Both the position numbers and the translations under genes were made by a program. From an uncultured Opitutaceae bacterium (GTDB taxonomy: Bacteria > Verrucomicrobiota > Verrucomicrobiia > Opitutales > Opitutaceae): a stretch of 56,001 bases of DNA. The DNA is taken from the NCBI GenBank assembly GCA_937889545.1, contig CALAOT010000073.1, forward strand, positions 1 to 56,001. The letters are read 5' to 3'. Shown piece by piece: positions 25,793-47,797 of this stretch; the first letter of the stretch is position 1, and each line of letters begins with the position of its first letter. The notes under the pieces were generated by a model, which saw only the letters and a list, made by a program, of their open reading frames with translations, was not told the DNA's origin and searched no databases.

Positions 25793-25843
25793 TGGGGCGG
25801 CCAACGGGACTCGAACCCGCGACTCCAAGATCCACAAGTTGTG
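25793..25843 (-). repeat. tRNA-His 3' fragment A (outer island edge)
   Basis: Copy of the tRNA-His 3' half from the anticodon loop to CCA, with a change in the variable loop (GACTCC where the parent has GACCCC). It is preceded by the conserved TATAAAA and lies 30 bases from the GPH symporter start. As the outermost copy it marks the oldest surviving junction. No arm-repeat pair is seen at +120; a possible +59 block (GTCAAGCTAACTGCG) is present. Confidence 0.9.
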
Positions 25844-25888
25844 TCAATACCGTCAAGCTAACTGCGTGTTTAATCGATGATTGCTGCG

Positions 25889-25937
25889 CTGTTTGGCGAC
25901 AGAGTTGAACACTGATGTTCGGACACGTGCCAAACAG
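25889..25937. repeat. Inverted repeat at the distal end of cassette A-B
   Basis: CTGTTTGGC (25889-25897) and GCCAAACAG (25929-25937) are perfect 9-bp inverted halves 31 bases apart, where other cassettes carry a direct-repeat pair. It may be a different arm-site arrangement or a hairpin. Confidence 0.5.
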
Positions 25938-25940
25938 TAA

Positions 25941-26220
25941 TGGGCTCAGTTGAGGTCACATCCGACCATCGTGAAACGACGTGTGGACGAATGTCCCACG
26001 ACTACCCGTCGTTGGTAGTCACGCAGTCATCGATCACGGTGGACTGGCGACTCCGACGAAACTGCACCGTGACGGGTATATACCGAAACCTGAGGTGCAA
26101 ACCTCGACATCACGGGGACGGGTGAGAGGCCGGGTCGGCGACTCGTCGATCTCCTATTCAAGAGGATGCGAACCAACTCGGAGGACATTGATTCTGGTGA
26201 CGTCCACAAAAAAGTGCTAT
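25941..26220. other. Non-coding region dense in stems; candidate structured RNA
   Basis: No credible reading frame. Several short perfect stems follow one another on the plus strand: GACTACC/GGTAGTC, TCACGGTG/CACCGTGA, GAGGT-GCAA-ACCTC (a GNRA tetraloop), CGGGTC/GACTCG with a 3-base loop, and GAGA/TCTC enclosing the last. It could be a small RNA carried by cassette A-B, or DNA hairpins used in recombination. No known RNA family is recognised. Confidence 0.4.
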
Positions 26221-26232
26221 TAGTCGCATGCT

Positions 26233-26439
26233 ATGAAAATCGGGATTGGAAATACAAAGCTCTCCGTCGCCCTCACTACGACAAATCTGGTTTTATGGGT
26301 GTGGGCTGTTAGCAGAATAAAGCATTATGGTGACTCGCTGACCGGACCGTATCTCATCTCACTGATCGCGTTGATGCTCGCTGCACTGATTCAATATCGT
26401 TCCGTCTTGGATGCCCGGCAGTGTCACGAAACTCATTGA
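26233..26439 (+). CDS. Possible small membrane protein
   Basis: 68 residues from ATG 26233, with two hydrophobic segments (VALTTTNLVLWVWAV and YLISLIALMLAALI) and a polar C-terminal tail. It follows the stem-rich region directly, and its 3' end overlaps the open frame of the integrase stump on the other strand. No family recognised; it may be a chance frame, though two well-formed TM segments in a short frame are notable. Confidence 0.35.
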   Translation: MKIGIGNTKLSVALTTTNLVLWVWAVSRIKHYGDSLTGPYLISLIALMLAALIQYRSVLDARQCHETH

Positions 26440-26758
26440 CGAGAAGTTCAAGTAAGTGGGATCTCACCCAAGCACCGTCTTCACCGTAGAGGGAAACCAT
26501 ACGGTCTTTCCCGTCCTCGTAAGTCACCACGTCTGTCAGGGACGTTTTCACGGGGCGGAGTTGTTCAAGGTTGTAGAGGATTTCCGTCCTCCGGTCCCAC
26601 AGTTTCCCGATGGGTAGTGGGGTCTTGTTCCGTTCCTCCAAGAACCTCTCACCATCTCTCAGGTCACGGAAGAACCGTCGTCGTCTCCGACGTTCTCCAT
26701 CGACTCCGAGATAGACGGAGTATCCGGCGGCCTGTCCGTTTCGTTTCTGAGGAGAGAT
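26354..26758 (-). pseudogene. Tyrosine integrase, N-terminal stump (cassette A-B)
   Basis: The minus-strand frame downstream of tRNA fragment B has the N-terminal layout of tRNA-targeting tyrosine recombinases: GYSVYLGVDGERRRRRRFF (arm-binding beta-strands), RDLRDGERFLEERNKT, then EILYNLEQLRPVKTSLTDVVTY as in the start of the core-binding domain. The frame has no ATG upstream, and the catalytic domain with its R-H-R-Y residues is absent. The similarity fades beyond about 26448. It starts within about 90 bases of the tRNA fragment and reads away from it, as integrase genes usually do. Confidence 0.65.
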
Positions 26759-26815
26759 TGAACCAACAGGAACTGGACCAGATTTCCCTGTCGGGGAATC
26801 AAGAACCCTAATCCC

Positions 26816-26833
26816 CTAAGGACCGTTCCTTAG
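26816..26833. other. Hairpin on the int side of junction B
   Basis: Perfect 7-bp stem CTAAGGA/TCCTTAG with loop CCGT, ending 11 bases from the tRNA fragment. It belongs to a set of unrelated-sequence hairpins at the same place in most junctions. Confidence 0.6.
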
Positions 26834-26844
26834 AAGGATTCAAG

Positions 26845-26897
26845 TGGGGCGGCCAACGGGACTCGAACCCGCAACCCCAAGATCCACAATTTTGTGC
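26845..26897 (-). repeat. tRNA-His 3' fragment B
   Basis: tRNA 3' half from the anticodon stem to CCA, one change in the T-arm. The flanking base run differs (CAAG instead of AAAA). Confidence 0.92.
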
Positions 26898-26963
26898 GCC
26901 TTTGCGAATGAGGTAGTTGCAAAGGCCAAAAACGGCCATTTCCAGGTTTCGCTCGGGGAAATC

Positions 26964-26983
26964 GTTCCACTGTTGTTCCACTG
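26964..26983 (+). repeat. Arm-type direct repeat pair, junction B
   Basis: GTTCCACTG at 26964 and again at 26975 (period 11), starting 119 bases from the tRNA CCA end. A block AATGAGGTAGTTGC lies at +61 to +63. Confidence 0.75.
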
Positions 26984-27058
26984 CTCAACCGATACGAATC
27001 TCGGTCGGGCCCAGTCGAGACTGAGAAACAAAGAACCGCTTTTTCGTTCTCAAGGGGG

Positions 27059-27493
27059 CTAGGGCTGAACGGCCACCGGGCTGAGGCCGAGCGCGACGGC
27101 CGCACGCGTCTGATGTGGGTCGTAAGTGTAGATCTCGGCGAAGTTGTGATGCAACGCCGTGATCAGATGGAGGCAGTCGCTGGCGCGGAGATACACAATA
27201 TTCGAGAGCGTAGTGTACGTCTTGGCCGCGGACTCGATGATCGCGTTTTCAAGGGGCAGCCAGTTCCAAAAGCCGCCATTTTCGTCGGTCGTAAACTGGT
27301 GAACGGCAGTTTGAAATTGGGGTCCCGTCCAAAGCTTCTCCCTTAGCATGCGGTGGAATACGCTCATCAACTCGACACGGGTAAGCGCAGAAGCAAAGAC
27401 CTGATCCTCGTTCTCGAGAAGCGCCCGAACTGCCCGCGATTCGTTTTCGGAAACGTACAACTTAGCGGCGGCCGACGTATCGCAAATAATCAT
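27059..27493 (-). CDS. vapC: PIN-domain toxin (VapC-type ribonuclease)
   Basis: 144 residues, the usual VapC length. Conserved acidic residues of the PIN active site are in place: MIICDTSAAAKLY (first Asp), LTRVELM (Glu), LRASDCLHLITAL (Asp) and YTYDPHQ (last Asp). VapC toxins cut tRNA or rRNA, often in the tRNA anticodon loop. It follows its Phd/YefM-type antitoxin by two bases. Sole operon of cassette B-C. Confidence 0.9.
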   Translation of the reverse strand: MIICDTSAAAKLYVSENESRAVRALLENEDQVFASALTRVELMSVFHRMLREKLWTGPQFQTAVHQFTTDENGGFWNWLPLENAIIESAAKTYTTLSNIVYLRASDCLHLITALHHNFAEIYTYDPHQTRAAVALGLSPVAVQP

Positions 27494-27495
27494 TA

Positions 27496-27744
27496 TCAGC
27501 GATCGCCGCGGATCTCGTCGAGCGCAGCTTGAATGTTGTTCCCGGGCCGCTCACTCATCATGGTTTCGTATCCGGGCACGATAGTTCGCTTACGCCTTCG
27601 GGGTTTAAGTAACGATGGGTTGGCAAGGACGGCGACAGGTAGGCCGCGATCGGTGATGACGACTGCGGAGCGTGAGGTGCCGGCTCGCCGGACATGATCG
27701 CCGGTCGTGGAATGAAGCTCTTTGATGGTGATTCTCGCGAGCAT
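27496..27744 (-). CDS. Phd/YefM-type antitoxin
   Basis: 82 residues. The N-terminal DNA-binding fold has ARITIKELHSTTGDHVRRAG and VVITDRGLPVAVLANP, typical of Phd/YefM; the basic PRRRKR and the C-terminal tail would wrap the VapC partner. First gene of the operon. Paired repeats just upstream suggest autoregulation. Confidence 0.88.
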   Translation of the reverse strand: MLARITIKELHSTTGDHVRRAGTSRSAVVITDRGLPVAVLANPSLLKPRRRKRTIVPGYETMMSERPGNNIQAALDEIRGDR

Positions 27745-27745
27745 T

Positions 27746-27794
27746 GTGTAACGGTGTCACTACGCCCTACCTAAGTCAAGTGTAATTGTGTCAC
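27746..27794 (-). promoter_or_regulatory. Candidate operator/promoter of the Phd-VapC operon
   Basis: A 15-base motif occurs twice: GTGTAACGGTGTCAC (27746-27760) and GTGTAATTGTGTCAC (27780-27794), 13 of 15 identical, start to start 34 bases. On the minus strand a TTGACT -35-like hexamer lies between them. Placement two bases upstream of the antitoxin start fits autorepression by the antitoxin complex. Confidence 0.5.
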
Positions 27795-27856
27795 AACCCA
27801 TTCCGAGACCGACCCGAACCACATTCTTCGTCACGGTGCTGGTCGCGATGGTTGCC

Positions 27857-27869
27857 GGCTTCGGAAGCC
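27857..27869. other. Hairpin on the int side of junction C
   Basis: GGCTT/AAGCC stem with a CGG loop, 8 bases from fragment C; the weakest of this set. Confidence 0.4.
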
Positions 27870-27877
27870 TCAGGAAA

Positions 27878-27928
27878 TGGGACGGCCGACGGGACTCGAA
27901 CCCGCGACCCCAAGATCCACAAAATTGC
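27878..27928 (-). repeat. tRNA-His 3' fragment C
   Basis: tRNA 3' half with two base changes in the acceptor region (GGACGGCCGAC for GGGCGGCCAAC), so a mature acceptor stem from this copy would differ. Flank is GGAAA rather than TAAAA. Confidence 0.9.
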
Positions 27929-27999
27929 ATCCATTTTGAAGATAAGCGGCTTACGAAAGCCAAACTCTTGTTCGACTACTCTGACAGAGCGAAAGCCAC

Positions 28000-28016
28000 G
28001 TGGCACAATGTGGCAC
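28000..28016 (+). repeat. Arm-type direct repeat pair, junction C
   Basis: GTGGCAC at 28000 and 28010 (period 10), 122 bases from the CCA end. Block GATAAGCGGCTTACG at +63. The stretch between core and arms resembles junctions E and F2. Confidence 0.8.
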
Positions 28017-28117
28017 GTTAGGAGGCGCCGAGAGTAGGACTAGATTCCCGCGAACGGTCCTGATGCTTCGTTCATTGCGGCTCCGAATTCGAGAGTTTTT
28101 GCGTGCAATGGGATAAA

Positions 28118-28130
28118 GGTTGAATCAACC
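28118..28130 (+). promoter_or_regulatory. Candidate operator of nucleotidyltransferase pair 1
   Basis: Perfect dyad GGTTGA-A-TCAACC ending eight bases before the ATG of the first gene, a natural place for autorepression. Confidence 0.45.
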
Positions 28131-28137
28131 TAATAAT

Positions 28138-28539
28138 ATGCCCAACCAACTAGCTCCAGACAAACGCAGACAAAGCCTCGCCGAGCATTCGGCGGTGCTG
28201 GCTGTGCTTGCCAAAATAGCCCGCGACGAAAACGTCCCGGTTATGGCTCTCTTGCGTCAGGCATCCCGAGATCTCATCAGGAACCGCGCCACAGCATTTC
28301 CTGCGAAGGCCCAGGAGTTGCGAGCGACTGCTTGGAAAGAGATGCCACGCATGCCCCGTCAGTTTAAGACGGCTGCTAAGGTAGCGAGATTCAAACGCGC
28401 GCAGCGTGAATTCGATCGCGTGATCTTAGAACTGGGCCTCGTCAGTCCTGCCGCTATTCAGGAGCGCAACTCCGTCGTTTCGTCTTCCGAGGCCGTAAAG
28501 CTCATCGACTTTGATCGTAGTCATGCCGATTCCATCTGA
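28138..28539 (+). CDS. Small partner protein of the nucleotidyltransferase, pair 1
   Basis: 133 residues from ATG 28138. Helical and basic, with no recognised domain. Its C-terminal part (KRAQREFDRVILELGLVSPAAIQERNSVV) aligns with the partner in cassette F-G (REWDAARIKFRLATAEQVQRENSAV), so the two belong to one family defined by R-E-[FW]-D and Q-x-x-N-S-x-V. It overlaps the nucleotidyltransferase start by 17 bases, exactly as in the second pair. Operon order suggests an antitoxin or specificity subunit (inference). Confidence 0.7.
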   Translation: MPNQLAPDKRRQSLAEHSAVLAVLAKIARDENVPVMALLRQASRDLIRNRATAFPAKAQELRATAWKEMPRMPRQFKTAAKVARFKRAQREFDRVILELGLVSPAAIQERNSVVSSSEAVKLIDFDRSHADSI

Positions 28540-29263
28540 AGTAAAGCCACGCCCGCCTGCAGATTTCGCCTCGGCCCTAGCGACGGCTGAACCCATATTG
28601 TTGGTCGGCGGCCAAGCCGTTAACCTTTGGGCACTCCACTACAGCGATCGATCCATGGGACTTGCTCCCTTTGTTTCCCGGGACGCGGACATTTTGGGTG
28701 ACCGCGCAACGCTTGAGGCTCTCGGCAAAGTGTCTGGGGTGAAGCCGCAATTTTTTCCGCTGCGACCGCCTACCAACGAAGTAGGTGTGGTGATCGCGAA
28801 GGACGCTAGCGGACAACCCTTGCTTATCGAAGTCCTTCGAAATGTTAATGGGGTTAAGAATGAAGAGCTTCGCGAACCCTCGTACACCCTCGCGATAGGC
28901 GTACGTCAGATTCATGTCCTAGTCCCCGGCCCGATCGCGTTGCTGAAGGCGAAACTTGCCAACGTGGTCGAACTAAAACAGGAGGGGCGCCAAGACACCA
29001 AGCATGTGCATGTGCTTGAGCGAATCATTCCAGCGTACTTGGAAGATCTTGGCAAAGCGGCCGCTGGCGGACGTTTGGATGAACGAAAGCTAATCGAATT
29101 CCTTGAGAAATTGTTGGCTGTTTTGACAAAAACCCCCAACCGACTTACTCTGAGCCAACTTGGTGTTAATTCCCGGGCGCTATTCGATACCCTGGATGAC
29201 CAAGGACTGCCTAAGGTTCAGGCATTCCTTGAGAAACGTCTGCCGCGATCGCTGGCAGATTAA
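28523..29263 (+). CDS. MNT/AbiEii-like nucleotidyltransferase, pair 1
   Basis: About 246 residues from ATG 28523. The nucleotidyltransferase motif is clear: GG at 29-30 (LLVGGQAVNLW) followed by Asp54-x-Asp56 (SRDADILGD). A further conserved block is PIALLKAKLANV...RQDTKHVHVL. The superfamily includes AbiEii and MNT toxins that modify tRNA or partner proteins with nucleotides. The stop falls three bases before fragment D, inside the junction flank, so the gene fills the cassette completely. Substrate unknown. Confidence 0.75.
   Translation: MPIPSEVKPRPPADFASALATAEPILLVGGQAVNLWALHYSDRSMGLAPFVSRDADILGDRATLEALGKVSGVKPQFFPLRPPTNEVGVVIAKDASGQPLLIEVLRNVNGVKNEELREPSYTLAIGVRQIHVLVPGPIALLKAKLANVVELKQEGRQDTKHVHVLERIIPAYLEDLGKAAAGGRLDERKLIEFLEKLLAVLTKTPNRLTLSQLGVNSRALFDTLDDQGLPKVQAFLEKRLPRSLAD
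29239..29259. other. Hairpin on the int side of junction D
   Basis: TCTGCC/GGCAGA stem around a 9-base loop, inside the last codons of the nucleotidyltransferase gene and 6 bases from fragment D. Confidence 0.5.
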
Positions 29264-29265
29264 AA

Positions 29266-29315
29266 TGGGGCGGCCAACGGGACTCGAACCCGCGACCCTA
29301 AGATTTAAAATGTTG
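29266..29315 (-). repeat. tRNA-His 3' fragment D
   Basis: Fragment identical to the parent through the T-arm, then eroded in the anticodon arm. No arm-repeat pair at the expected position; the flank beyond is taken up by a coding remnant. Confidence 0.9.
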
Positions 29316-29340
29316 TATCACATTTTATAGAAACTACTTA

Positions 29341-29529
29341 CTAGCAGACAACCGGCTTTTCCCGGTTTTCCTCGCGGAGATTGAAATTCCGCTGTCCCCG
29401 ACCAAGGCCGGCTTGGCTCCATTTGTGGAAAAGCTGGTGGCGCCGCTGTTCGCGGTATTCGGCGCAAGCATTTCCTCCGGCGTGATTCAACAAATCGCCA
29501 ATGGTATCCTGAAACACGACACGATGTAA
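29341..29529 (+). pseudogene. Coding remnant at the distal end of cassette D-E
   Basis: An open frame without a start codon runs out of tRNA fragment D and ends at TAA 29527-29529. It reads ADNRLFPVFLAEIEIPLSP then KLVAPLFAVFGASISSGVI, with normal composition for a protein and a hydrophobic stretch. It looks like the last 60 or so residues of a gene cut at the junction. Family not recognised. Confidence 0.4.
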
Positions 29530-29654
29530 CTGAATTGGGCAGGCACGTGCCTGTGTCCGCTTGAAAACCGCGCTCCTGCAAATCCCAACCCAGGCATCTG
29601 AAACTGTCGCATGACCGACTTGATGCAATATCGCGGATTTCTCCGAGCAAAGCA

Positions 29655-32600
29655 TCAATGCTCCCGGCAGGGAGGCGCGCCGTGCAGGGTGATTGAAACA
29701 GGATGACGCGGCGATTCGTACCATACGGCAACCGTCATTAGAATCCGCTCCATCCACGCTCTCTCTGCAATGTCCAGGATCCGACGTTCGCAGCTGGCGA
29801 ATACATGCCACTCCCCGCACTCGGTTTCGAGGGAGAAGCCTTCAAAATCGCCGAAGCGGTCATAGATTATTCCTCCTACCTTGCCTGTGATTCGGATCGT
29901 TCCATCGCGGTCATCGCCGTGGCCGTGATGGGGTCCTTCCGGATGAGGATGATGGGGAGGAGTCCATTCGCCCGTGGGTGAGGGCCCGATTTCCCCGGGG
30001 TTGCCGCCCAGTCCCTTCACGCGGTCGGCGATCTGCAGCACGTAACGCTGGAAAACGGGGTACCAGCGGTTTGAATGGGGAATCGATTTCTCTATCCACC
30101 TAAGGACCGAAAGCAGCCGTTCCTCGGGCCCGAGCATGACGGCCTTGGTCTTGACGGGGATCACGACCTGGAACGCCCCCATCATCCGTCTCCAGGCGAT
30201 CTGCTGGTCGTTTACCGCCCTGTCGGTGTTGGAGGCGACGTTGATCTTGGGCGGCGGGGGTGGGGGCGGCGTTGATTTGCCAAAGGCATTGGTGAACTGC
30301 CGGACGACAACCGTGTAGGCCTGGCCCTTCTTGACCGTGTCCGGCAGGCTGACCGAGAGAAGCCCCGCGAAATTCGCGGGGCCGGCACCTGCCGGAATGG
30401 GCAGGTACGTGACGCCACTGGCGGGACACTCGATCGTGTGGGCGTCCTGCTTCGTCAGGCGGTGCGTCGTGTAGAGGGAGGCCGCCTGCCTCAGGATGTC
30501 GTCTGCGTTGGAAGCGGGCAGGTAGATGGCGGCCGTGCTGCCAGCCGGCGTGTTGCCCCAGTCGATCATCATCTCGTCCGGCGGCGCCCCCGCTAACGAC
30601 GCGGCCGCCGTCGGTCGGACCTCGAAGGGCTGCGGGACCCGGCGGGAGAGTTCCAGTCCGGGGTTGGGCGCGTCGACAAAGGCGATGTTGCGCTGGGCGA
30701 GCTGGCTTGAGGCGGACGGGTCGGCGTTCTGGGGGATCGGAACGTCGTCAAAGGCAACCTCGGCGACCAGGCACTGGTGCAGGCTGCGGATAAAGACCTC
30801 CTGCAGGGAAAGCATCGGTTGGCCTCCATAGGGGCCGTCCACGTTGGTCGCCGGCGGGCTGAACGGGACGATCTGGCGGGTCTGGTTGAAATCGAGCCAG
30901 CAGCCGAAAAACGTGTCGACCTCCGCCCCGCTTGGATTGGGGGCGATGTCCCGGACGTTCGGGGGGTCGGTCTGGGTGGTCATGTTGGTGGCCGCGCTCG
31001 TGTTCGCCACCCGGGCGGTCGCGAAGCAGGGGATCGTCACGAACTCCCCTCCCTGGGTGCCGAAGAGCGGGATCTTCCGGCCGTAGGCCGCGCCGTCGGA
31101 CCATTTGCGGTAGGGGCCGTCGCCGGGCGCAGCGCCCGGGTCCACGTAGGAGACGGCCGTCGTCTGCGCCTGGAAGAGCCGGAAGAAGACGCGGGTTGCC
31201 TTGGCCGTGAGCGAGAGCCCCTGCAGCCTGACGCGGGCGACCGCGAAATTGAAGACCAGGTTGTGGTTCGAGTCCGTGGGGAAGAGATAGAGCGACTCGG
31301 TCGCCTCGGCCGCCCCCGGGTCCGTGACCACCTTGCTCTGGTCGCCCAGGTTGTCGAACTTGTCGCCGTTCACGTTCCCCTGGTTGCTCGTGAGGTTCTT
31401 GACCGCGCTCGCGATGAAGGCCGGGGCGGCGTCGGCGCTGCCACCCATCGTGGCGCCGAAGCGGCTCTCGTTCGCCTGGACCGTGAAGACGCGTAGGTCC
31501 GTGCTGAGCCAGGCGGTGATGCCATTCAGGACGTAGGGGTTGGCCTTCTTGACTAGGTGGAACTGGCCGGTGCCGTTCAGCGGGTCGCCGGTCTTGCTCG
31601 TCAGCGAGGCCTCCAGCGTGATTGCCTGCGAGGCCGAGACAAAGCCGCTGTCGTCGGTGAAAATGACGTCGAAGGGGAAGGCAAAGCGCTGCGCCTGGTT
31701 GGGCAGGCTCGGGTCCTCCGGCAGCACCGGCCCGGCGAACTTGACGGACAGGCCAGAGAAGGCGGGGTCGAGCGTCACCTTAGGGATGATGGGCGGGTTG
31801 GCGAGGTCACCGGAGGAGCTGATCCCGAGCTGGGCCGGCGTCAGGCCCTCGACCCACACCCAGAAGGCCGGGAACAGGGCGGGGCTGGCCTGCTTCAGCA
31901 TGGCATCCACCTCGTCGCTGCCGAACGTGTCCTTCTGGACTGCGAAGACGCATTTCTTCGCGTAGAGCTGCTGGAGGCGGGTCAGGAGCTGGGTCCCGTC
32001 AATGCTGCCCCAGCCGGTGCAGGGGTCCCAGCCGGCACCGGCGGTGTAGCCCGGCGAGGTGCCTGTGGTCCCGTCGGACTTGGTGAAAGTCGCGGAGTTG
32101 TTGCCACCGTCCGCGACGTCCCGGAAGATCTTCTGCCCGGCCTCCTGGGCGAGCGCGTATAGGGTCGGGTTGAGGAACCCGACATTCTCGCCGAGGGTTG
32201 AGTTGACGATCGCGACGAGCCCGGCGTAGAGGGGGGCGACGGCGCTGGTGCCGCCGACCGACCCGAAGTTGCTCCCCTTGTCGGAGCCCTTCGTGACTTT
32301 CAGGGAGGTCGTCTGGGAGCCGTACAGGAATAGCGTGTAGCCGCTGAACGGGCTCGCGTTGCCTGAAACGTCGGGGAGGCCCCGGCCCTTGGTCTTGTCG
32401 TCGTTGACCGATGGGGGGACGTTCGCGCCGTCCTGGTAGGCCTGGGTGCCATACTTGACGCTCACGCCGCCGCACGAGGCCCCTGCGTCGTTCCAGGTCC
32501 CCTCGGTGAAGGTTGAGCCGGAGACGTTGGCAATGTAGGTGCCGCCGCAGGCAAGCGCCCACGGGTCGGAGGAGGGGTACTGGACGTGGGCGCTGCCGTC

Positions 32601-39973: not shown

Positions 39974-40091
39974 GAAGCGCGGACCAGGAGTGAAAGTGAG
40001 GAGCCAAGTCGTCGCTGGCCAGACCAAAGCCGGGGCTGCAAGACACGCCACACGCCTGTGATGGATCGCAGTCTGGCGACCTTGCCGTCAT

Positions 40092-40125
40092 GGCTGGCGA
40101 CGGGTGATCCGCCCGCTTGCCAGCC
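40092..40125. other. Hairpin on the int side of junction I
   Basis: GGCTGGC/GCCAGCC outer stem with GGG/CCC inside, 16 bases from fragment I. Confidence 0.55.
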
Positions 40126-40141
40126 CCGAGCTTTCCTAAAA

Positions 40142-40197
40142 TGGGGCGGCCAACGGGACTCGAACCCGCGACCCCAAGATCCACAATTTTGTGCTCT
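40142..40197 (-). repeat. tRNA-His 3' fragment I
   Basis: Near-perfect copy from GTGCTCT in the D-arm side to CCA, flank CTAAAA. Confidence 0.95.
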
Positions 40198-40263
40198 CGT
40201 TGGAAATAAACGCTTTGTGAAACAGCCTCTCGGCTCCATCCCCTCCCAGCCTAGGGATGGCAT

Positions 40264-40280
40264 GTGGCACGATGTGGCAC
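40264..40280 (+). repeat. Arm-type direct repeat pair, junction I
   Basis: GTGGCAC at 40264 and 40274 (period 10), 122 bases from the CCA end; block AAATAAACGCTTTGTG at +63. The IS element starts ten bases further on. Confidence 0.82.
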
Positions 40281-40290
40281 GTTTCTATGG

Positions 40291-41151: not shown

Positions 41152-41155
41152 GCCG

Positions 41156-41230
41156 CCTGAACAGTGGGAGACGACCCATCGGCTGGAATCTAGAACTGCA
41201 GCCTCACACACTGCGCGGTCGCTGCTAGCC
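41156..41230. repeat. 75-bp direct repeat, left copy
   Basis: Starts CCTGAACAGTGGGAGACGA and ends CGGTCGCTGCTAGCC, five bases from the IS end. It matches 41956-42031 at about 80 per cent with one indel; the pair brackets the DUF1801 gene. Confidence 0.75.
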
Positions 41231-41300
41231 GAAAACAAGTTGTGCGGAGGGCTCCGTTGGTTGCTCAACGATCGATTAAAACAGGTCTAATTGAACGGCG

Positions 41301-41702
41301 TTAATCAGCCTTCTCCCTCATCGATTTCAGACTCGCCCTCACAAGTTTCTTTACCAGAGCCTTTGGAATCGTCTTCCCGGCGGAAAAACTGACTACCGCT
41401 TTTGTCGTGAGGTATCCTTTAAGTTCCTTTTTGTGATCTACGAGCGCCTGCGGGCGAACGTGCAGACGCACAAAGGGTGCCTTAAAGCTAAACCAGGCAA
41501 ACATGCCGTTATAGTCGTAGCCCTCGTATGAATATCCCGGCATATCGAAATAGCTGACAGTCTCGATGGCATCCGGAGCCACTGCCTGTATTGTGGCCCT
41601 CATGATCGCCAATTTGCCTTGTACCTGTCCCGGGCAATCGGCGATGTATTCATCAATTCCTCCAGGTTTGATGGAGGCAGATTTCTTTTTGGCTTTTTTC
41701 AT
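41301..41702 (-). CDS. DUF1801 / YdhG-like small protein
   Basis: 133 residues from ATG 41702 (MKKAKKKSASIKPG); a longer frame to 41822 looks non-coding. Family pattern: GGIDEYIADCPGQVQGKLAIMRATIQAVAPDAIETVSYFDMPGYSYEG, then FVRLHVRPQALVDHKKELKGY and a basic C-terminal helix. The fold is frataxin-like; some members were proposed as iron chaperones but the function is unsettled. The gene sits between two 75-bp direct repeats, like a small unit of its own. Confidence 0.85.
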   Translation of the reverse strand: MKKAKKKSASIKPGGIDEYIADCPGQVQGKLAIMRATIQAVAPDAIETVSYFDMPGYSYEGYDYNGMFAWFSFKAPFVRLHVRPQALVDHKKELKGYLTTKAVVSFSAGKTIPKALVKKLVRASLKSMREKAD

Positions 41703-41955
41703 AATGCTTTTGGCTTGTGCTCTTGGTTCGCTGAGGCCGCAAAAGGCAAAAAGGGAAGCCCAATTCCTCGGGAGGAACGGTTGGAAACATATTCCGATGA
41801 TCTTCAGGATGAGAAGACACAACCGATCAGCTAGCTTTCTCAGGGGAATTTAGGCTCGAGCGGGCTTGTCGGGCGTCTGTTATTCGGGTCTTATAGCACT
41901 CGCCGGAATCGGTGTCCCATGAAGACCTCCTATTCGATCAACTGATGCTTGTTCA

Positions 41956-42031
41956 CCTGAACATTGGGACACGATCCATCCGCTGGAATTTGGAATTGCT
42001 GCTTCACTACCCTGCACGGTCGCTGCTATCC
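41956..42031. repeat. 75-bp direct repeat, right copy
   Basis: Starts CCTGAACATTGGGACACGA and ends CGGTCGCTGCTATCC; about 80 per cent identical to 41156-41230, same orientation. Confidence 0.75.
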
Positions 42032-42077
42032 CAAGCGGCGAAGGTCACTAATGCTGCGAGTATGACCAATGGTGTGA

Positions 42078-42530
42078 TCACAGTTTGACTCGGGCCGCGA
42101 GCATGGGGCGGTAGACGCGGCGGTAAGCCAAGGCCAAATAGACATTAATGGCCAAGACGACGACTGCCACCACAAGACCAGATGGCGCTAGAAAAACATG
42201 GAAGGCGACGATGTTGACTACGACCGGCGCGATGAACGCCAAGGCTAGCGGAACGAATAGGTTCGTCAAAAGGAGGGCTCCGCAGATGACCTCCGTCCAC
42301 GCGGTCAATTGGAAAAGGTAGCCACTCTTGATCAGCGCGCCCGCGAAAGCGGTGGCACCGTCGGGCAGCGGCTTTGGAGGTTGGGGGAGAAAACTCAAAA
42401 GCATGTTGAGTCCGAAAACGAGGAAGATAAGCCCCATTAGGACTCGTGCGGCGATTGGCCCATTCCGAGCAAACCAGCCCGCATTTCGGGCATTAGCTTC
42501 GCGCCCTTGAATATTTGCATCCGTGATCAT
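42078..42530 (-). CDS. DoxX-family membrane protein
   Basis: 150 residues, four predicted TM helices (AARVLMGLIFLVFGLNMLL; LTAWTEVICGALLLTNLF; LAFIAPVVVNIVAFHVFLA; VVAVVVLAINVYLALAY). DoxX-like proteins are small inner-membrane proteins linked to thiol/redox stress. Third gene of a TetR-controlled operon, 15 bases after the AHSA1 gene. Confidence 0.82.
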   Translation of the reverse strand: MITDANIQGREANARNAGWFARNGPIAARVLMGLIFLVFGLNMLLSFLPQPPKPLPDGATAFAGALIKSGYLFQLTAWTEVICGALLLTNLFVPLALAFIAPVVVNIVAFHVFLAPSGLVVAVVVLAINVYLALAYRRVYRPMLAARVKL

Positions 42531-42545
42531 GGCATCCTCCTAATT

Positions 42546-43028
42546 TCAACCGCTCGTAACCAAAGCCGCCAATTGTTCAGTGCAAATCGCCCATCCTTTG
42601 TGGAAGCCCATTTTCTCGTGTGCCTCGCGATCCTCAACTGTCCAGTGTCTCACCAGCGCCGTATATTTGGTGCTGCGACCTTTGTCCTCGAAGGTGAGGA
42701 TCACTGTCATGAACGGCTTATCCGAGGGCTCCCAGGCCCTAGTGTAGGCATTCGTGAAGACTAGCCGCTCGTTCTCGACGACCTCAAGGTAGACGCCGCG
42801 GTTCGGAAACTCGCTGCCGTCGGGGCCGCGCATCACGATCAAACTTGAACCGCCAGGTCGAACATCTGTCTCAACGACAGGCGTTGTCAAAGGGGCCGGC
42901 GCAAACCACTTCTTTAACATTTCGGGATCAGTCCACGCCTTGAATATTCTCGCTCGCGGCGCATCAATGATGCGTGTCAGAACGAGATCGCGACCTTCAG
43001 TTGATGTGGTGACTTTGGATGTGTCCAT
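42546..43028 (-). CDS. AHSA1/SRPBCC family protein
   Basis: 160 residues with the START-like AHSA1 fold: LVLTRIIDAPRARIFKAWTDPEMLKKWFAP at the start, VRPGGSSLIVMRGPDG, and the C-terminal helix HEKMGFHKGWAICTEQLAALV. These proteins bind hydrophobic ligands; AHSA1-DoxX-regulator operons are common and thought to be stress-related. Start 10 bases after the TetR stop. Confidence 0.88.
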   Translation of the reverse strand: MDTSKVTTSTEGRDLVLTRIIDAPRARIFKAWTDPEMLKKWFAPAPLTTPVVETDVRPGGSSLIVMRGPDGSEFPNRGVYLEVVENERLVFTNAYTRAWEPSDKPFMTVILTFEDKGRSTKYTALVRHWTVEDREAHEKMGFHKGWAICTEQLAALVTSG

Positions 43029-43038
43029 GTTTGTGTCA

Positions 43039-43689
43039 CTAAGGGTTGTTTAGTCTTGTTTGTCCGAAGAGGAGGCCGAAATAACGCCGAAGGTGTGCAA
43101 TGTTTTCGCGTGCGACGTCAGGGCTTTGCTTGGCCTTCGCGAAGATGAAGGAGCCCTGAAGTACGGATTGGATGAAATATCCAACGCTCTCCGCACTCCA
43201 CGGCGCCGTCGGAGCGTAGAGTTGTTTGGCGCCTTCGATGTCTCCTGTCAGCGCGGCGATATGCGAGGACATGCCGCGATCGCAGGCAGATCGGATTTCC
43301 GGATGTGTTTCGTAGGTTTCCTGAACCAGCGTTCCAAGTAGACAGGTGTATTCAGGAATCTCGCCGCAAAGGATTTCTCCCCGAAAATCCAGATACCCGA
43401 AGAGGCGGTCCAATGGATCCTTCGCTTTGCGGTAGGGCGCTTCAGCGAAAAAACTTTCAGTTAACGATGTCCAATATGCGGCAGCGGCGAGTGCGAGTTC
43501 GTCCTTGCTCTTGAAGTGATGAAAGAAACTGCCCTTGGTAATTCCCGCCCTATGGCAGATGTCATCGACTGTCGTGCTCGCGTAGCCTTTGGCCCGAATG
43601 ACATCCAGGGCCGAGTTCAGGAGCCTGATCTTTGACTCGTGCGGTGCCTCGACCGAAAATTCTGGTGGTTTCATTTCGGCAAACGACAT
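43039..43689 (-). CDS. TetR-family repressor
   Basis: 216 residues. N-terminal HTH (VIRAKGYASTTVDDICHRAGITKGSFFHHFKSKDELALAA) is a clear TetR signature; the rest is the ligand-binding helical domain. First gene of the operon with AHSA1 and DoxX. A strong palindrome covers its start codon, so it most likely represses itself and the operon. Confidence 0.92.
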   Translation of the reverse strand: MSFAEMKPPEFSVEAPHESKIRLLNSALDVIRAKGYASTTVDDICHRAGITKGSFFHHFKSKDELALAAAAYWTSLTESFFAEAPYRKAKDPLDRLFGYLDFRGEILCGEIPEYTCLLGTLVQETYETHPEIRSACDRGMSSHIAALTGDIEGAKQLYAPTAPWSAESVGYFIQSVLQGSFIFAKAKQSPDVARENIAHLRRYFGLLFGQTRLNNP

Positions 43690-43706
43690 ACCAACTAGTC
43701 GGTATG
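43687..43706. promoter_or_regulatory. TetR operator over the tetR start codon
   Basis: CATACC (43687-43692) and GGTATG (43701-43706) are perfect inverted halves around a central ACTAGT palindrome, with only one mismatched position on each side of it. The first three bases are the complement of the ATG. Confidence 0.72.
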
Positions 43707-43797
43707 GTGGAAGCTAAAATAACATTGTCTGCATATATGTTCCGTATATCATTACTCCATAATTCTTTAGGATTGTTTTATACGGGGGAAAGTAGGT

Positions 43798-44019
43798 TCA
43801 ACTCTGAGAATCATCTCCAAATTCTTGAACTCGGCTATGACCTTTTCCTCCTTCGTAAACGGCGCCACTAACACGCCACGCCTGCAAAACAGTCTCCGCG
43901 ACGAGACGTGGTTCGTCAGTCGCGGCGCGGAGCACCCCGAGTGAGGTCAGGAGGATAATCGCCAAGATCAACAGGCGTCGCGGCCCGTAGCGTAGAACTC
44001 CATTTCCGTTTCGTGGCAT
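43798..44019 (-). CDS. Possible small membrane-anchored protein
   Basis: 73 residues: basic N-terminus followed by one hydrophobic segment (RLLILAIILLTSLGVLRAA) and a polar tail, resembling a signal anchor. Family not recognised. The 569-base stretch 43690-44258 otherwise shows only the TetR operator and, near 44200 and 44213, two GTTGCCAGT direct repeats whose complement (TGGCAAC) resembles an arm repeat. Confidence 0.3.
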   Translation of the reverse strand: MPRNGNGVLRYGPRRLLILAIILLTSLGVLRAATDEPRLVAETVLQAWRVSGAVYEGGKGHSRVQEFGDDSQS

Positions 44020-44258
44020 TTTATCTTCACCGAAACTGAGATTGCGGAGGCGGAGGCAATTCTAACGGACTCCCTCGTGGCTAATCTCGGGCGCTCCAGT
44101 TCGCGCCGATGCTTGCTCGTGCATGACCGGAAGGGAACAACCTCACGTGTCGGCTCAGGTCGCGCACATCAGCGAACATCTGCGCATTTCAGCGGCCGTG
44201 TTGCCAGTAAGCGTTGCCAGTTGCGCCCTGGTTTCCCGTAACTTCCTCGCTATCAAAA

Positions 44259-44314
44259 TGGGGCGGCCAACGGGACTCGAACCCGCGACCCCAAGATCCA
44301 CAAAATTGTGCTCT
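44259..44314 (-). repeat. tRNA-His 3' fragment J
   Basis: Near-perfect copy from CTCT to CCA with an altered anticodon-loop side (CACAAAATTGTG). Flank CTATCAAAA. Confidence 0.95.
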
Positions 44315-44380
44315 CGCGTTGAATCAAGGACTTAGGTGATGGCCACTTATCCCCGCCCAGAGAGCGCAGAGGGACGGCAT

Positions 44381-44408
44381 GTGGCACGATGTGGCACGTT
44401 TGCGGCAA
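44381..44408 (+). repeat. Arm-type direct repeats (three), junction J
   Basis: GTGGCAC at 44381 and 44391, GCGGCAA at 44402: starts at +122, +132 and +143 from the CCA end. Block AATCAAGGACTTAGG at +63. The third copy occupies the position used by junction H. Confidence 0.82.
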
Positions 44409-44423
44409 CAAATGGGGCTTTAG

Positions 44424-44845
44424 TCAGAGGACTCCGAGGTTCCTCTGAGCCAACAAAAACTTGCCGGGCGTTGAGATCGCCATCCCGTAAATTTGGTGGC
44501 CGAGATTCCCTTGAAAATCCGTCTCATCGAGCGTCAACAACCATTCGCATTGCGCAGCGAGCGCCGAGATCACGACCGGCCGATCTTTCGCCTTTGGAAA
44601 AACCAAGGTCCTGTCGAGCGCGACGCGCACTGCGGCAAACTCGACGGAGGGCGAGACGATTGAACTCCAGGCTTCCGCGGCCGAATGTCCGACCTTTGCC
44701 AGATTCCGCCGTGCTTCCTCGGCGCAGTAATCAGCAGAAACCAATACCCATTCTGAGATTTTGCCTGGCGAATCAAAAACCGCGAAGCTCCTTGCCCAGT
44801 TCCCGATGCAGCCAGGAGAACGCTGGTATCAAGAAATAGCCTCAC
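44424..44845 (-). pseudogene. PIN-domain toxin, AbrB-PIN module 2 (frameshifted)
   Basis: Near-duplicate of the toxin at 34288-34710. It begins MRLFLDTSVLLAASGTGQGASRFLIRQAKSQNG, then one base is missing (GAATGGG for GAATTGGG, near 44751) and the remaining PIN sequence continues in another frame as SADYCAEEARRNLAK to AQRNLGVL. The second half keeps normal codon structure, so the loss is recent or an assembly error. The antitoxin beside it is intact, as expected if the toxin was lost first. Confidence 0.85.
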
Positions 44846-45093
44846 CGCTTAACTTTGCGTGGAGTAGCTCGAAAGGTAGCCATGTCCGCTTCGTCGCGGG
44901 CGATCCATCGGTCAATCGTTGCCTTGGGAATGTCTCGCATGGGCATCGCGACTGCCGGCTGCAAGAAAAGGCCTCCCTCGCATTCTTCAACAAGAACCAT
45001 GGGATTGCTCAGCTTGTCGAAGCCCAGTTTGCGACGGAGGGCAGGAGGCAGTGTAAGTGAACCGCGTTTACTCAGAGGGATGGTGGTTGCCAT
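44842..45093 (-). CDS. AbrB/MazE-type antitoxin, AbrB-PIN module 2
   Basis: 83 residues, differing from the module 1 antitoxin at only two positions that I can see (TTIPLS for TTVPLS, KATIDR for KAIIDR). The open frame extends further upstream but the family start is ATG 45093. Upstream, an ATGCTGC/GCAGCAT-type dyad is a possible operator. The 332 bases from 45094 to 45425 carry no other gene; the first part still aligns with the flank of module 1. Confidence 0.88.
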   Translation of the reverse strand: MATTIPLSKRGSLTLPPALRRKLGFDKLSNPMVLVEECEGGLFLQPAVAMPMRDIPKATIDRWIARDEADMATFRATPRKVKR

Positions 45094-45384
45094 GCAGCCA
45101 TGCTGCAACGCAGCAATGCGGTACTCAAGTATAAATTGAAGAATAGGCTCTGGTCGCTCGGCGGAGGGGTAGGAAACCCGGACTGCCTGCTTCCGAATGT
45201 ATTCCGCAACACCGTCATTACCGCCAGACCCGTTTCGTTGGAGCAAAATCTGGGGAAAGTCTATTGGGGAGCCTCGGCTGGAAATGGAGGGACGAGCGAC
45301 TGAGAGGTTGCTCTTTGAGCTTTGGCAATCGATTCCGCTGGCAACACAATGGCGAGGGCGCCCACGTCTAGCCGGTTCATTGGT

Positions 45385-45407
45385 AAGGGCCGCATCGGCC
45401 GGCCTTT
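45385..45407. other. Hairpin on the int side of junction K
   Basis: AAGGGCCG pairs imperfectly with CGGCCGGCCTT; it ends about 19 bases from fragment K. Confidence 0.5.
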
Positions 45408-45425
45408 CGTTATCAATTGCTAAAA

Positions 45426-45478
45426 TGGGGCGGCCAACGGGACTCGAACCCGCGACCCCAAGATTCACAATTTTGTGC
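45426..45478 (-). repeat. tRNA-His 3' fragment K
   Basis: tRNA 3' half with the anticodon-stem change GATTCACA also seen in F and G. Flank CTAAAA. Distal end of the youngest cassette. Confidence 0.95.
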
Positions 45479-45546
45479 CCCTGCATGGGACAAGGACTTA
45501 CGTAGCTGGAAAATGGCCTCTTCGGCCCTTCACTCGGGCTAAATCG

Positions 45547-45564
45547 CGCCAGCATTACGGCAGC
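45547..45564 (+). repeat. Arm-type direct repeat pair, junction K
   Basis: CGCCAGC at 45547 and CGGCAGC at 45558 (period 11), starting 121 bases from the CCA end. I found it by looking at the position predicted from the other junctions; the sequence is unlike theirs. Block GACAAGGACTTACG at +63. Confidence 0.6.
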
Positions 45565-45634
45565 GCTTTTATGCGGTTTTTTTAAAATGCGGGGCACGCT
45601 ACCGACATAAGTGCAGTTCTTGTCGGCGTGCTCG

Positions 45635-47539
45635 TCAGTTCCGCGAAGCGGGCTGCGAAACGGTGGCCGTGTTACCTTTGGGAGCTTGAGGAGACCTATT
45701 GGGGTCGGCTTCGGCGCGGGCGAGAAGGGCTTTGAAACGCGAAGTGTTTCGTAATGGGTCGTAAAAGGGATTGAGGCGCAATTCCGCGGCGGTGCGAGGC
45801 CGCCTCGATTCCAAAATATCCATGGCCGCGTCGAGCTGGCCTTCGGCGATTCTAAGGTCAAAAAGGTACGGTTGCCTTCCCGAAAACTCCGCAGACAGGT
45901 TCAGGGCTTTCTCGGACTCGGCATAGTCCCCTAGATATGCGAGCAACTTACCTTTCAAATATAGCAAATCCGCATCTGAGGGTTGATCCGCAAGGCGGTG
46001 CTCGACCAGCTTCAGGGCCGTCTGCCATTCAATGCGCGCGGCTTCGTTCCGCCCCGCCATCTGGTGAGCTATGCCATTGTAGGCTGCAATCGGTCCAAAA
46101 ACACTGCCGTTTGATTGAACCCAATCGCGCCCGAGACTGTTGCTGAACCGGAGCCAATCGTCGGGCTTCCTTTGCCAAGTAAATACGGCATTCGCAATCG
46201 TCACACCGATATCCGTCTGCAAAACCGTTGCCGGAAGCTCGTCCATGGCGGCCTTAGCGGAGGCGATATCCCCACGCCAAAGCAGGGAGATAAACACTTT
46301 CAGGAATAGATTTCCCCAAAATGGCTGAATGGCGAGCGAACGCGCGAGTGGCATTTCAACTGCGGACCATGAGCCGGTTTGGTATTCTATCCATGCAAGC
46401 TCGCTCCAAGCCGTTGCAGAAAATTGCGGATTGTTGGCGAGCCGAGAGAATTCGGCCCGGGCCTGGTCTACGTGGCCAAGATTTCGCTCCAGAATCCCCA
46501 AGGCGAACAATGCTCGCGGCTCGTCCGGCTTCTCTCCAAGCAACTGATGAAGCAGCCTATTCGCCTCCGGGGCGAATGTCGAAACCTCCCCTTGCCCCGT
46601 TCCTGCCGTCGCACCGCGGACCAGATAGCAGGCTTGCGCAAGGCGCGCCTCGTACGAGGAAGGCGCCAGCTTGAGTGCGCGGGCCGCGCATGAGCGGGCC
46701 GCATCCCGGCGCCCAATGCTGGTGTCAAAACTGTGATAGATATACCACGAGTCGACTTGCGACCACGCAGCCCAGGCCTCGGCGTTTGCCGGTTCGAGTT
46801 CGGCGGCTCTTTTGCAGAACCCATCCGCAATTCCGAGTTCCTCCGGGCCCAACTCGGTCTTGTTAAGTTGTTCCCAGACCTTTGCGACAAGCTGCCGCGC
46901 CTCTGAAACCGACGAGGCAACTTGAACCGCTTGGGTCGATTTCTCTCCCTTGCGCCACGGCTGCCAGATGACCAGGGCGAGACAAGTGATCACCCCAGCG
47001 ACTGCCGGAAATATCCACGTGCGGGATGCTCTCGCAGGGCGCGGCCAGGAAGGGTTTGCCATTGCCGGGGCTTGTCGGCCGGCCTCGCTTGGTGGTCCGG
47101 CCAAGAGCTTCTTAACACGCTCGCAAAAAGCCGGCGGAGTCTCACCTCCGGGCAACTTGGTCCATTGAACAGCGAGGAAGGCATCAGGCACGAGGGCCCC
47201 CTGGTCATCGGTCCTATCCACGTTTACCGGCACAATAAAGGGCCGGCCCTTGGCGATCAGGAGCGAACGCTGCTCCGCGAGATGCCATTCAAGGCGGAAA
47301 TAGCCTTCAGCCCTTTCCTGGGTGTGCGCCGAAATGATCGGCATGAACAGGGCGCATTCCTTGATCTGTCTTCGGATGCTCTGGTCCCAGGCGTCCCCTC
47401 CGCGAATTTCGCTCTGGTCGAACCAGACCTCGACCCTGGCAGCGCGAAGGGCCTCACAGATGCGCCTAGCGGCTTCAGCATCCTGTGAGGCATAGCTTAG
47501 GAAGACCGCACCTTTTGGGGTTGATAAGGTATCGGGCAT
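45635..47539 (-). CDS. TIR domain protein with TM segment and TPR repeats
   Basis: 634 residues from ATG 47539 (MPDTLSTPKG). TIR domain about 8-150 (GAVFLSYASQDAEAARRI; VWFDQSEIRGGDAWDQSI; candidate catalytic Glu in GYFRLEWHL). One TM helix near 180-200 (WIFPAVAGVITCLALVIW), then about ten TPR-like units to the C-terminus. The TIR domain is closely related to that of the frameshifted gene in cassette H-I, but that protein has a TolB-like domain in place of the TM helix. Predicted NAD-cleaving or signalling TIR with an external sensing domain; a defence role is inferred from family and context. Confidence 0.85.
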   Translation of the reverse strand: MPDTLSTPKGAVFLSYASQDAEAARRICEALRAARVEVWFDQSEIRGGDAWDQSIRRQIKECALFMPIISAHTQERAEGYFRLEWHLAEQRSLLIAKGRPFIVPVNVDRTDDQGALVPDAFLAVQWTKLPGGETPPAFCERVKKLLAGPPSEAGRQAPAMANPSWPRPARASRTWIFPAVAGVITCLALVIWQPWRKGEKSTQAVQVASSVSEARQLVAKVWEQLNKTELGPEELGIADGFCKRAAELEPANAEAWAAWSQVDSWYIYHSFDTSIGRRDAARSCAARALKLAPSSYEARLAQACYLVRGATAGTGQGEVSTFAPEANRLLHQLLGEKPDEPRALFALGILERNLGHVDQARAEFSRLANNPQFSATAWSELAWIEYQTGSWSAVEMPLARSLAIQPFWGNLFLKVFISLLWRGDIASAKAAMDELPATVLQTDIGVTIANAVFTWQRKPDDWLRFSNSLGRDWVQSNGSVFGPIAAYNGIAHQMAGRNEAARIEWQTALKLVEHRLADQPSDADLLYLKGKLLAYLGDYAESEKALNLSAEFSGRQPYLFDLRIAEGQLDAAMDILESRRPRTAAELRLNPFYDPLRNTSRFKALLARAEADPNRSPQAPKGNTATVSQPASRN

Positions 47540-47676
47540 CAAGTGGGGAGCAGGGGGTAAGCTGGGGACGCTCAAATCCAAAAACAAGCCCTCACCGCTG
47601 GCTGGTAGGGCCTATTGCGGCGCCGAAAATCATTGCACTTTCCCGGCCTCAGATTTGACCGCAGTCAATCGGATCC

Positions 47677-47695
47677 CTTCGAATAACAGTCGAAG
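47677..47695. other. Hairpin 3' of the intact tRNA-His gene
   Basis: CTTCGA/TCGAAG stem with a 7-base loop, 24 bases from CCA. Same stem and distance as at junction H, different loop. No T-run follows on the tRNA strand, so it is not a standard terminator. Confidence 0.65.
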
Positions 47696-47719
47696 TCGCT
47701 GAGGTTCTTCGCTATAAAA

Positions 47720-47797
47720 TGGGGCGGCCAACGGGACTCGAACCCGCGACCCCAAGATCCACAATCTTGTGCTCTAACCAACTGAGCTATGACCGCC
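47720..47797 (-). tRNA. tRNA-His (anticodon GUG), intact
   Basis: 78 bases with encoded CCA. The acceptor stem pairs fully once the first G is read as G-1 opposite discriminator C73, the hallmark of histidine tRNA. D-stem GCTC/GAGC, anticodon stem CAAGA/TCTTG with loop TTGTGGA (anticodon GTG), T-stem GCGGG/CCCGT with TTCGAGT. It is the only complete copy here and so probably the functional attB of the array; each integration must rebuild its 3' half. Confidence 0.97.

Follow-up and report, generated by a model that had tools for sequence, protein, structure and literature searches.

The tRNA-His locus and its partial copies

The window analysed here is a stretch of 56,001 nt from an uncultured Opitutaceae bacterium (contig CALAOT010000073.1 of assembly GCA_937889545.1), in which 22 kb on the 3′ side of a tRNA-His(gtg) gene are divided by partial copies of that gene into eleven modules, M1 to M11, of 1.03-4.87 kb. 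The intact gene is the sole tRNA called by ARAGORN in the window and the only tRNA-His among the 41 tRNAs detected in the assembly (termed G000; 4.33 Mb in 128 contigs, 92% complete). It is presumed to be both attB and the right end of the array. When the window was scanned with the 3′ 55 nt of tRNA-His, 12 same-strand places, including the intact gene, matched at 36 or more of the 55 positions (starts 25791, 26843, 27876, 29264, 34131, 35225, 36766, 37847, 40140, 44257, 45424 and 47718), and the next best place on either strand matched at 31/55. The eleven partial same-strand copies reported in the original prediction, together with the intact gene, were thus recovered, as were their spacings, which from M1 to M11 are 1052, 1033, 1388, 4867, 1094, 1541, 1081, 2293, 4117, 1167 and 2294 bp. 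Nine of the eleven modules are 1.0-2.3 kb in length, and they mostly carry one gene or operon each. Their GC content is 0.53-0.65, compared with 0.642 for the flanks. The boundaries are listed below, and were located by the 55-nt scan unless another source is given.

25793..25845, minus strand: copy 1, leftmost, class I
26845..26897, minus strand: copy 2, class I
27878..27930, minus strand: copy 3, class I
29266..29318, minus strand: copy 4, class I, diverged
34133..34185, minus strand: copy 5, class I
35227..35279, minus strand: copy 6, class I, A allele (scan and allele comparison)
36768..36820, minus strand: copy 7, class I, A allele (scan and allele comparison)
37849..37873, minus strand: copy 8, class II, T-loop crossover (aligned with 8 other class II sites)
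40142..40194, minus strand: copy 9, class I
44259..44311, minus strand: copy 10, class I
45426..45478, minus strand: copy 11, class I, A allele (scan and allele comparison)
47720..47796, minus strand: intact tRNA-His(gtg) gene (ARAGORN)

A 32-nt tRNA-His core, allowed up to 3 mismatches, matched 10 times in the whole assembly, always within the array (the copies at 29264 and 37847 lie beyond the mismatch limit), and the reversed-pattern control gave 0 matches. The retained 3′ part runs as far as the anticodon loop in ten copies (class I) and as far as the T-loop in the remaining one (class II). All eleven therefore end at one of the two tRNA crossover zones, anticodon and T-arm, that are tabulated by Islander (PMC4383910). 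Rather than being a damaged long copy, the copy at 37847 belongs to a separate class with a T-loop crossover that recurs in other genomes. The base 3′ of the anticodon also varies, being G in the intact gene and A in four copies, those at 35227, 36768 and 45426 plus the diverged one at 29266. The same A allele is found in the tRNA-His of four relatives, G240, G188, G038 and G176 (G numbers denote genomes of the family). If the crossover falls 5′ of this base, M5, M6 and M10 would have originated from A-allele hosts.

Arm-like repeats at a fixed distance from the core

Eight of the eleven modules carry a phased direct-repeat pair at a fixed distance from the core. The pair lies to the right of the core, has a period of about one helical turn, and starts at +119 to +122 in seven of the ten class I copies and at +143 in the class II copy. 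Class I pairs are either TGGCAC-type (M3, M5, M7, M9 and M10) or TTCCAC-type (M2 and M6).

26964..26983, plus strand: M2 pair GTTCCACT n3 GTTCCACTG, +119 from core
28000..28016, plus strand: M3 pair GTGGCAC n3 GTGGCAC, +122
34254..34271, plus strand: M5 pair TGTGGCAC n3 TGTGGCA, +121
35347..35365, plus strand: M6 pair GTTCCACT n3 GTTCCACT, +120
36887..36903, plus strand: M7 pair ATGGCAC n3 ATGGCAC, +119
37992..38010, plus strand: M8 class II pair GGCAACCT n3 GGCAACCT, +143
40262..40281, plus strand: M9 pair ATGTGGCACG ATGTGGCACG, +120
44379..44398, plus strand: M10 pair ATGTGGCACG ATGTGGCACG, +120

The unit order in these eight modules is thus core, arm-like pair, cargo and next core. The aligned region of M11, a module without clear arms, resembles that of relative G072. 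A second class I arm region without a tRNA core is present in M6 at about 35344-35485, and is likely the relic of an element that was fused into or deleted from the array.

Partial copies are not confined to tRNA-His. In G000, 30 same-strand partial copies (at least 22/26 matches) lie behind 12 tRNAs and none lies on the opposite strand, in 528 kb of 3′ flank from the 41 tRNAs. Flanks reached up to 22 kb per tRNA, many being shorter since contigs end, and one of 31 raw same-strand matches was dropped because it was the neighbouring tRNA-Arg gene. An exact direct-repeat run of at least 7 with a period of 9-13 occurs on the attachment (att) side of 14 of these 30 copies and on the other side of 2. 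The same criterion is satisfied by 8.25% of 20,000 random segments, giving a binomial p of 2.7e-8, although related copies are not fully independent. The sequence TGGCACNNTNTGGCACG has exactly four exact matches in G000, all within the array. Among the other 199 genomes searched there are seven single matches with no tRNA in their loci, and we regard these as background because the reversed control gives 6 in the 200. Given known tyrosine-integrase biology, we infer that the direct-repeat pairs are integrase arm sites.

A hairpin next to the tRNA 3′ end closes several modules and suggested a terminator carried by each module, but this idea was rejected, as the 50 nt behind each of the 12 cores fold with a mean of -11.8 kcal/mol versus -12.1 kcal/mol in 3,000 random segments.

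Integrases in the array and at other tRNAs

As originally proposed, the array holds no complete recombinase. The 12 PF00589 matches and 15 phrog_1 matches in the genome all lie elsewhere, and the sole remnant is an 83-residue integrase N-terminus in M1, which by tblastn is 73% identical to the integrase beside tRNA-His in G107. The 17 integrase queries left no tblastn trace in any of the ten modules other than M1. Integrase N-termini had been suspected by eye in M4 (33738-34130) and in G072 (L052 9667-9939), and both were discarded on finding Pfam and PHROGs unsupportive.

Relatives carry integrases at their tRNA-His genes: a complete one in each of G164 and G162, an N-terminal half or more in G199, and an N-terminal part in G107. 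The G162 and G164 enzymes are matches to the phrog_1 integrase family, and the one in G199 is a relative of the integrase at tRNA-Ser(gga). The integrases at tRNA-Ser(gga), tRNA-Ser(gct) and tRNA-Glu(ttc) of G000 and at tRNA-His of G162 are 48-59% identical to one another. The member directly behind tRNA-Glu(ttc) (G000 C3:48062-68000) has no fragment copy in 20 kb.

Six of the 30 fragment-bounded modules of G000 contain an integrase (Pro(ggg) 1, Pro(cgg) 1, Ser(gga) 1, Ser(gct) 1, Cys 1 and Cys 2), as assigned by hand from coordinates. At tRNA-Ser(gga), module 1 encodes a 406-residue integrase and module 2 has no integrase match (phrog_1, tblastn), and the att regions of the two modules are 82% identical over 167 bp. 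This att type recurs at M8 and next to six tRNA-His-type fragments that belong to five further genomes (G107, G188 twice, G114, G059 and G094); in G094 and at the Ser sites, its second repeat has degenerated. In G164, a near-identical element (97.9% over 16.4 kb) resides at both tRNA-Ser(gga) and tRNA-Ser(gct) (C1:1511051-1531000 and C1:1250600-1270531), and it bears a toxin-antitoxin pair 47-49% identical to that of M5 and M10.

Variation of the array among relatives

The tRNA-His 3′ end, at no more than 1 mismatch, was found in 191 of 252 genomes of the family, and six genomes have at least three matches: G000 (10), G240 (5), and G188, G107, G186 and G208 (3 each). These counts include the intact gene and pool the contigs. 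With the partial-copy count used above for G000, G131 gave 6 fragments at 32 tRNAs (34 found) and G164 gave 4 at 42 tRNAs, with 0 on the opposite strand. We conclude that a few such fragments are common and that the tRNA-His stack is extreme.

The congener G131 matches the locus along its right flank and in the beta-lactamase-like gene on the left, lacks the major facilitator superfamily gene that adjoins the array in G000, and has a single tRNA-His with no partial copy. In G240, whose array spans three contigs and can be ordered only within them, an M3 orthologue (79%) lies between copies 5824 and 4474 of contig 78 and is the last module before the chromosomal flank. M3 is therefore present without an integrase, and at nearly equal size, in two species. 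The M11 gene recurs in G240 (82%) and in G188 (76%); in G188 it occupies the tRNA-distal end. One class I site of G240 is 83% identical to the M9 site and adjoins a toxin-antitoxin-like pair recognised by eye. G188 contains one or more class II modules, and G072 carries a different toxin-antitoxin module and an FG-GAP-like gene (by eye). Another G188 locus (C37:1-16000) has two tRNA-His-like 3′ fragments, at 7433-7466 and 14157-14183, with no tRNA found in its 16 kb, and the first of these is followed by an M5/M10-like toxin-antitoxin pair.

The array is thus not a fixed block, and module content differs between congeners by whole cassettes, the comparison being one between species (G131, G240, G188 and G072 with G000). 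A block of modules fixed among relatives would have spoken against the original prediction, and the different module sets of G131, G240 and G188 exclude it.

Cargo of the modules

M1, 25793..26844, 1052 bp: integrase N-terminal remnant 26767-26519 (minus); no other cargo recognised in family searches
M2, 26845..27877, 1033 bp: PIN toxin 27059-27493 (minus; PF01850, 1.3e-14); Phd/YefM-like antitoxin 27496-27744 (minus)
M3, 27878..29265, 1388 bp: small open reading frame (ORF) 28120-28539 (plus); predicted nucleotidyltransferase 28511-29263 (plus)
M4, 29266..34132, 4867 bp: pro-kumamolisin/subtilase-type peptidase 29655-33707 (minus; PF09286, PF00082); ORF 33738-34175 (minus)
M5, 34133..35226, 1094 bp: PIN_3-like toxin 34288-34710 (minus); AbrB/MazE-like antitoxin 34707-34958 (minus)
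M6, 35227..36767, 1541 bp: distant paralogue of the M3 nucleotidyltransferase 35822-36733 (plus; 38% identity, E 2e-34)
M7, 36768..37848, 1081 bp: ribbon-helix-helix antitoxin 37083-37331 (plus; PF01402); PemK/MazF toxin 37328-37660 (plus; PF02452)
M8, 37849..40141, 2293 bp: TIR-TPR protein as two overlapping ORFs 39347-40051 and 38022-39371 (minus; PF13676 and TPR families)
M9, 40142..44258, 4117 bp: IS4/5-family transposase, DUF1801, DoxX, AHSA1/SRPBCC and TetR, all minus
M10, 44259..45425, 1167 bp: twin of M5; PIN_3-like and AbrB-like by identity to M5, toxin frame broken
M11, 45426..47719, 2294 bp: TIR-TPR protein 45635-47587 (minus; PF13676, 7.6e-20)

Toxin-antitoxin or possible toxin-antitoxin pairs account for six of the eleven modules and TIR genes for two. 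Cargo lies on the plus strand in M3, M6 and M7 and on the minus strand in the remaining modules, and no transfer genes are among the Pfam matches of the scanned array ORFs. Some assignments fall below family cut-offs, namely the M2 antitoxin (PF02604, 2.9e-4) and, slightly, the M5 toxin (PF13470, 2.1e-5); the M5 antitoxin was assigned from the names of its homologues, which carry Verrucomicrobiota and Opitutaceae names. The M4 ORF at 33738-34175 runs over the next core (copy 5) and has no family match. At the nucleotide level, cargo is related in just two pairs, M5 and M10 (89% over 838 bp) and M8 and M11 (72% over 233 bp). M5 is chimeric (34133-34270), with a core-to-arm segment 86% identical to M3 and cargo 89% identical to M10, and the switch occurs at the arm repeat.

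The M3 proteins have no match in Pfam, PADLOC or NCBIfam, and the nucleotidyltransferase-like protein of M6 has no family match. For M3, the protein model has a predicted local distance difference test (pLDDT) score of 89, and its ten top PDB matches are nucleotidyltransferase or polyadenylate synthase entries, albeit weak ones (best E 1.2e-3, query TM-score 0.26-0.38). Relatives of this two-gene system, distant ones included, occur in 63 of the 252 family genomes, and the two genes (28120-29263) might form a toxin-antitoxin or defence system that has yet to be described. A tRNA end lies within ~1.5 kb in 8 of 30 M3-type loci that were fetched (reversed control 0). Two of the eight are G000 and G240 and three are intact tRNAs, for which an estimated ~1 would be expected by chance. 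These counts faintly suggest that M3-type cargo may pass between tRNAs.

Origin of the array

The explanation that we consider the most probable, although with clear reservations, is that the modules, none of which has a complete integrase, entered the locus serially through the action of tyrosine integrases supplied in trans. A module circle would recombine its core with tRNA-His or with a resident copy; this would restore the 3′ part of the tRNA, and the displaced 3′ part would become the next boundary. The integrases would be supplied by other elements. For the class II module M8, the helpers could be relatives of the tRNA-Ser(gga) integrase, homologues of which start ~60 bp behind tRNA-His in G162 and G199. 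Toxin-antitoxin cargo would make loss via recombination between the ~53-bp repeats costly, which would help the stack to persist.

Several observations weigh against insertion in trans. M1, M4 and M11 have no clear arms. A search for a class I integrase with these arms found none: the core-plus-arm scan recovered 2 candidates from genome_contigs and 1 from viral_contigs, and no tRNA lay in any of these loci. The retained arms could simply have outlasted complete elements that decayed recently, and M1 does hold an integrase remnant. M3 of G240 and G000 may have been inherited vertically rather than inserted separately, and the broken cargo of M8 and M10 shows parts of the array to be decaying. 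Furthermore, excision, circles and transfer were not observed.

The main rival explanation, which we judge possible but distinctly less probable, is accretion of decayed elements: each module would have arrived with its own integrase and lost it later, yielding cis-mobilisable elements (CIMEs) and making mobilisation in trans unnecessary. Such loss is the standard account of how CIMEs arise (PMC5704250). It is favoured by the integrase N-terminus retained in M1, by the complete integrases at tRNA-His in G164 and G162 and the partial ones in G199 and G107, and by the broken cargo of M8 and M10. M1 fits decay, and other modules possibly do too. However, decay of this kind would have to have erased every trace detectable with the 17 integrase queries from 10 of 11 modules, to have left the twins M5 and M10 both without an integrase in two places, and to have produced an integrase-less M3 of nearly the same size in two species, while the arms were kept at a fixed distance despite loss of the enzyme.

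A third reading, in which the repeats would be pseudogenes of the tRNA or regulatory copies that play no role in recombination, and strains would have exchanged the cargo through homologous recombination, is very improbable. Repeats of ~53 bp could support such exchange, and the M5 chimera is the kind of product that it might leave. Nevertheless, the eleven copies stop at the known tRNA crossover zones in the anticodon or T-arm (PMC4383910), enrichment of arm-like pairs is confined to a single side (14/30 versus 2/30), and integrases occur in 6 of the 30 fragment-bounded modules of the genome. Least credible is tandem duplication of a single ancestral island followed by divergence, rejected here for the array as a whole even though M5/M10 and M8/M11 are related over their cargo, because the other modules share no cargo at the nucleotide level, the related modules are non-adjacent, and one and the same array combines two att classes with two tRNA alleles; this outcome, too, had been named beforehand as one that would count against serial capture.

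Relation to known systems

The array matches what a tyrosine-integrase element leaves at a tRNA gene, with a regenerated tRNA and a displaced same-strand 3′ fragment. The principle of stacking such units is known from CIME accretion, additive islands and ssrA islands. CIMEs, described together with the site-specific tandem accretion of integrative and conjugative elements (ICEs) and integrative and mobilisable elements (IMEs), are attL/attR-bounded units that lack genes for recombination or transfer and are stacked at one target gene (PMC5704250). The array is similar in that cores flank all 11 modules, arm-like pairs are present in 8 of 11, and no complete integrase or transfer gene was matched. 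CIMEs, however, are described as decayed ICEs or IMEs (PMC5704250), whereas here there are eleven units, nine of them 1.0-2.3 kb, with one integrase relic. A CIME is mobilised in cis along with a neighbouring ICE or IME, and the array contains no integrase-bearing element.

Additive islands at tRNA genes are also comparable. The fGI-2 islands of ‘Candidatus Methylopumilus’ are additive, have 20-bp repeats of tRNA parts, and vary in length between 330 bp and 42 kb, holding 1 to 63 coding sequences (PMC10872708); gene content is likewise added at tRNA genes, with tRNA-part repeats, in fGI1 of Actinomarinales (PMC7771536); and a cassette model of additive islands is given in PMC5217437. The array shares with these islands a content that varies between relatives by whole cassettes, in this case at tRNA-His. 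The accessible parts of the fGI-2 and fGI1 reports contain no core-plus-arm analysis, no modules with and without integrase that share att sites, and no array made up mainly of toxin-antitoxin and TIR genes such as the one described here (PMC10872708, PMC7771536). In Dehalococcoides, islands bounded by ssrA 3′ fragments lie in tandem, and an integration module is present in 16 of them and missing from 15 (PMC3146451). Those islands use the serine recombinase DsiB and a 20-bp repeat and carry reductive dehalogenase cargo (PMC3146451), whereas the target here is tRNA-His and the tRNA-His integrases of G162 and G164 are of the phrog_1 family. Tycheposons, as described in PMC10872708, are tRNA-bounded, carry a tyrosine recombinase with cargo, and span 4-200 kb; the array has no complete recombinase, and its modules are 1.0-4.9 kb, nine of the 11 being under 2.3 kb. 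Given these tRNA- and tmRNA-bounded cassettes, some of them without integration genes (PMC10872708, PMC7771536, PMC3146451), the view that no comparable system has been described finds no support.

What stands out is the number of integrase-less single-operon modules and their kept core and arms. In the literature searched, which mostly excluded subscription papers, we found no recognisable report of an array with this many such modules. Surveys of the Islander type would miss integrase-less arrays because each island is tested for an integrase; Islander, with 3,919 islands, lists only 4 tandems that comprise at least three (PMC4383910).

Chromosomal integrons hold arrays of gene-sized cassettes that are rich in toxin-antitoxin genes and lack a recombinase of their own. 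The array resembles them in having gene-sized cassettes, abundant toxin-antitoxin genes and no recombinase in the cassettes. In contrast to an integron, it contains no complete tyrosine recombinase and has no integrase next to it, and so no IntI beside attI (attI and attC models were not run). Its boundaries, and presumed recombination sites, are tRNA-His 3′ parts with arm-like repeats rather than attC hairpins, as judged without a dedicated attC model. Integron cassettes share one orientation behind a single promoter, whereas the cargo here lies on both strands, and site classes differ within one array. In the favoured reading the array would function like an integron, yet structurally it is not one. 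The earlier interpretation is supported in part, namely for site-specific accumulation at a tRNA core, for modules of gene size, for cargo of the toxin-antitoxin and TIR types, for module sets that differ between congeners and for att sites kept in modules lacking an integrase.

Extended beyond this locus, the reading becomes more tentative: tRNA genes might be integron-like collecting platforms, with tyrosine integrases resident at several tRNAs moving a pool of tiny cassettes of core, arms and one operon in trans, much as miniature inverted-repeat transposable elements are mobilised by autonomous transposons; toxin-antitoxin addiction would keep the cassettes in place, and exchange of the core would let the same cargo switch tRNA targets. 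The fixed core-to-arm distance provides a simple search rule for similar arrays, and the module pair at tRNA-Ser(gga) offers a direct test of action in trans. If modules do move in this way, tRNA genes would constitute, in some bacteria, a second, integron-like route by which single operons of toxin-antitoxin and defence type are collected.

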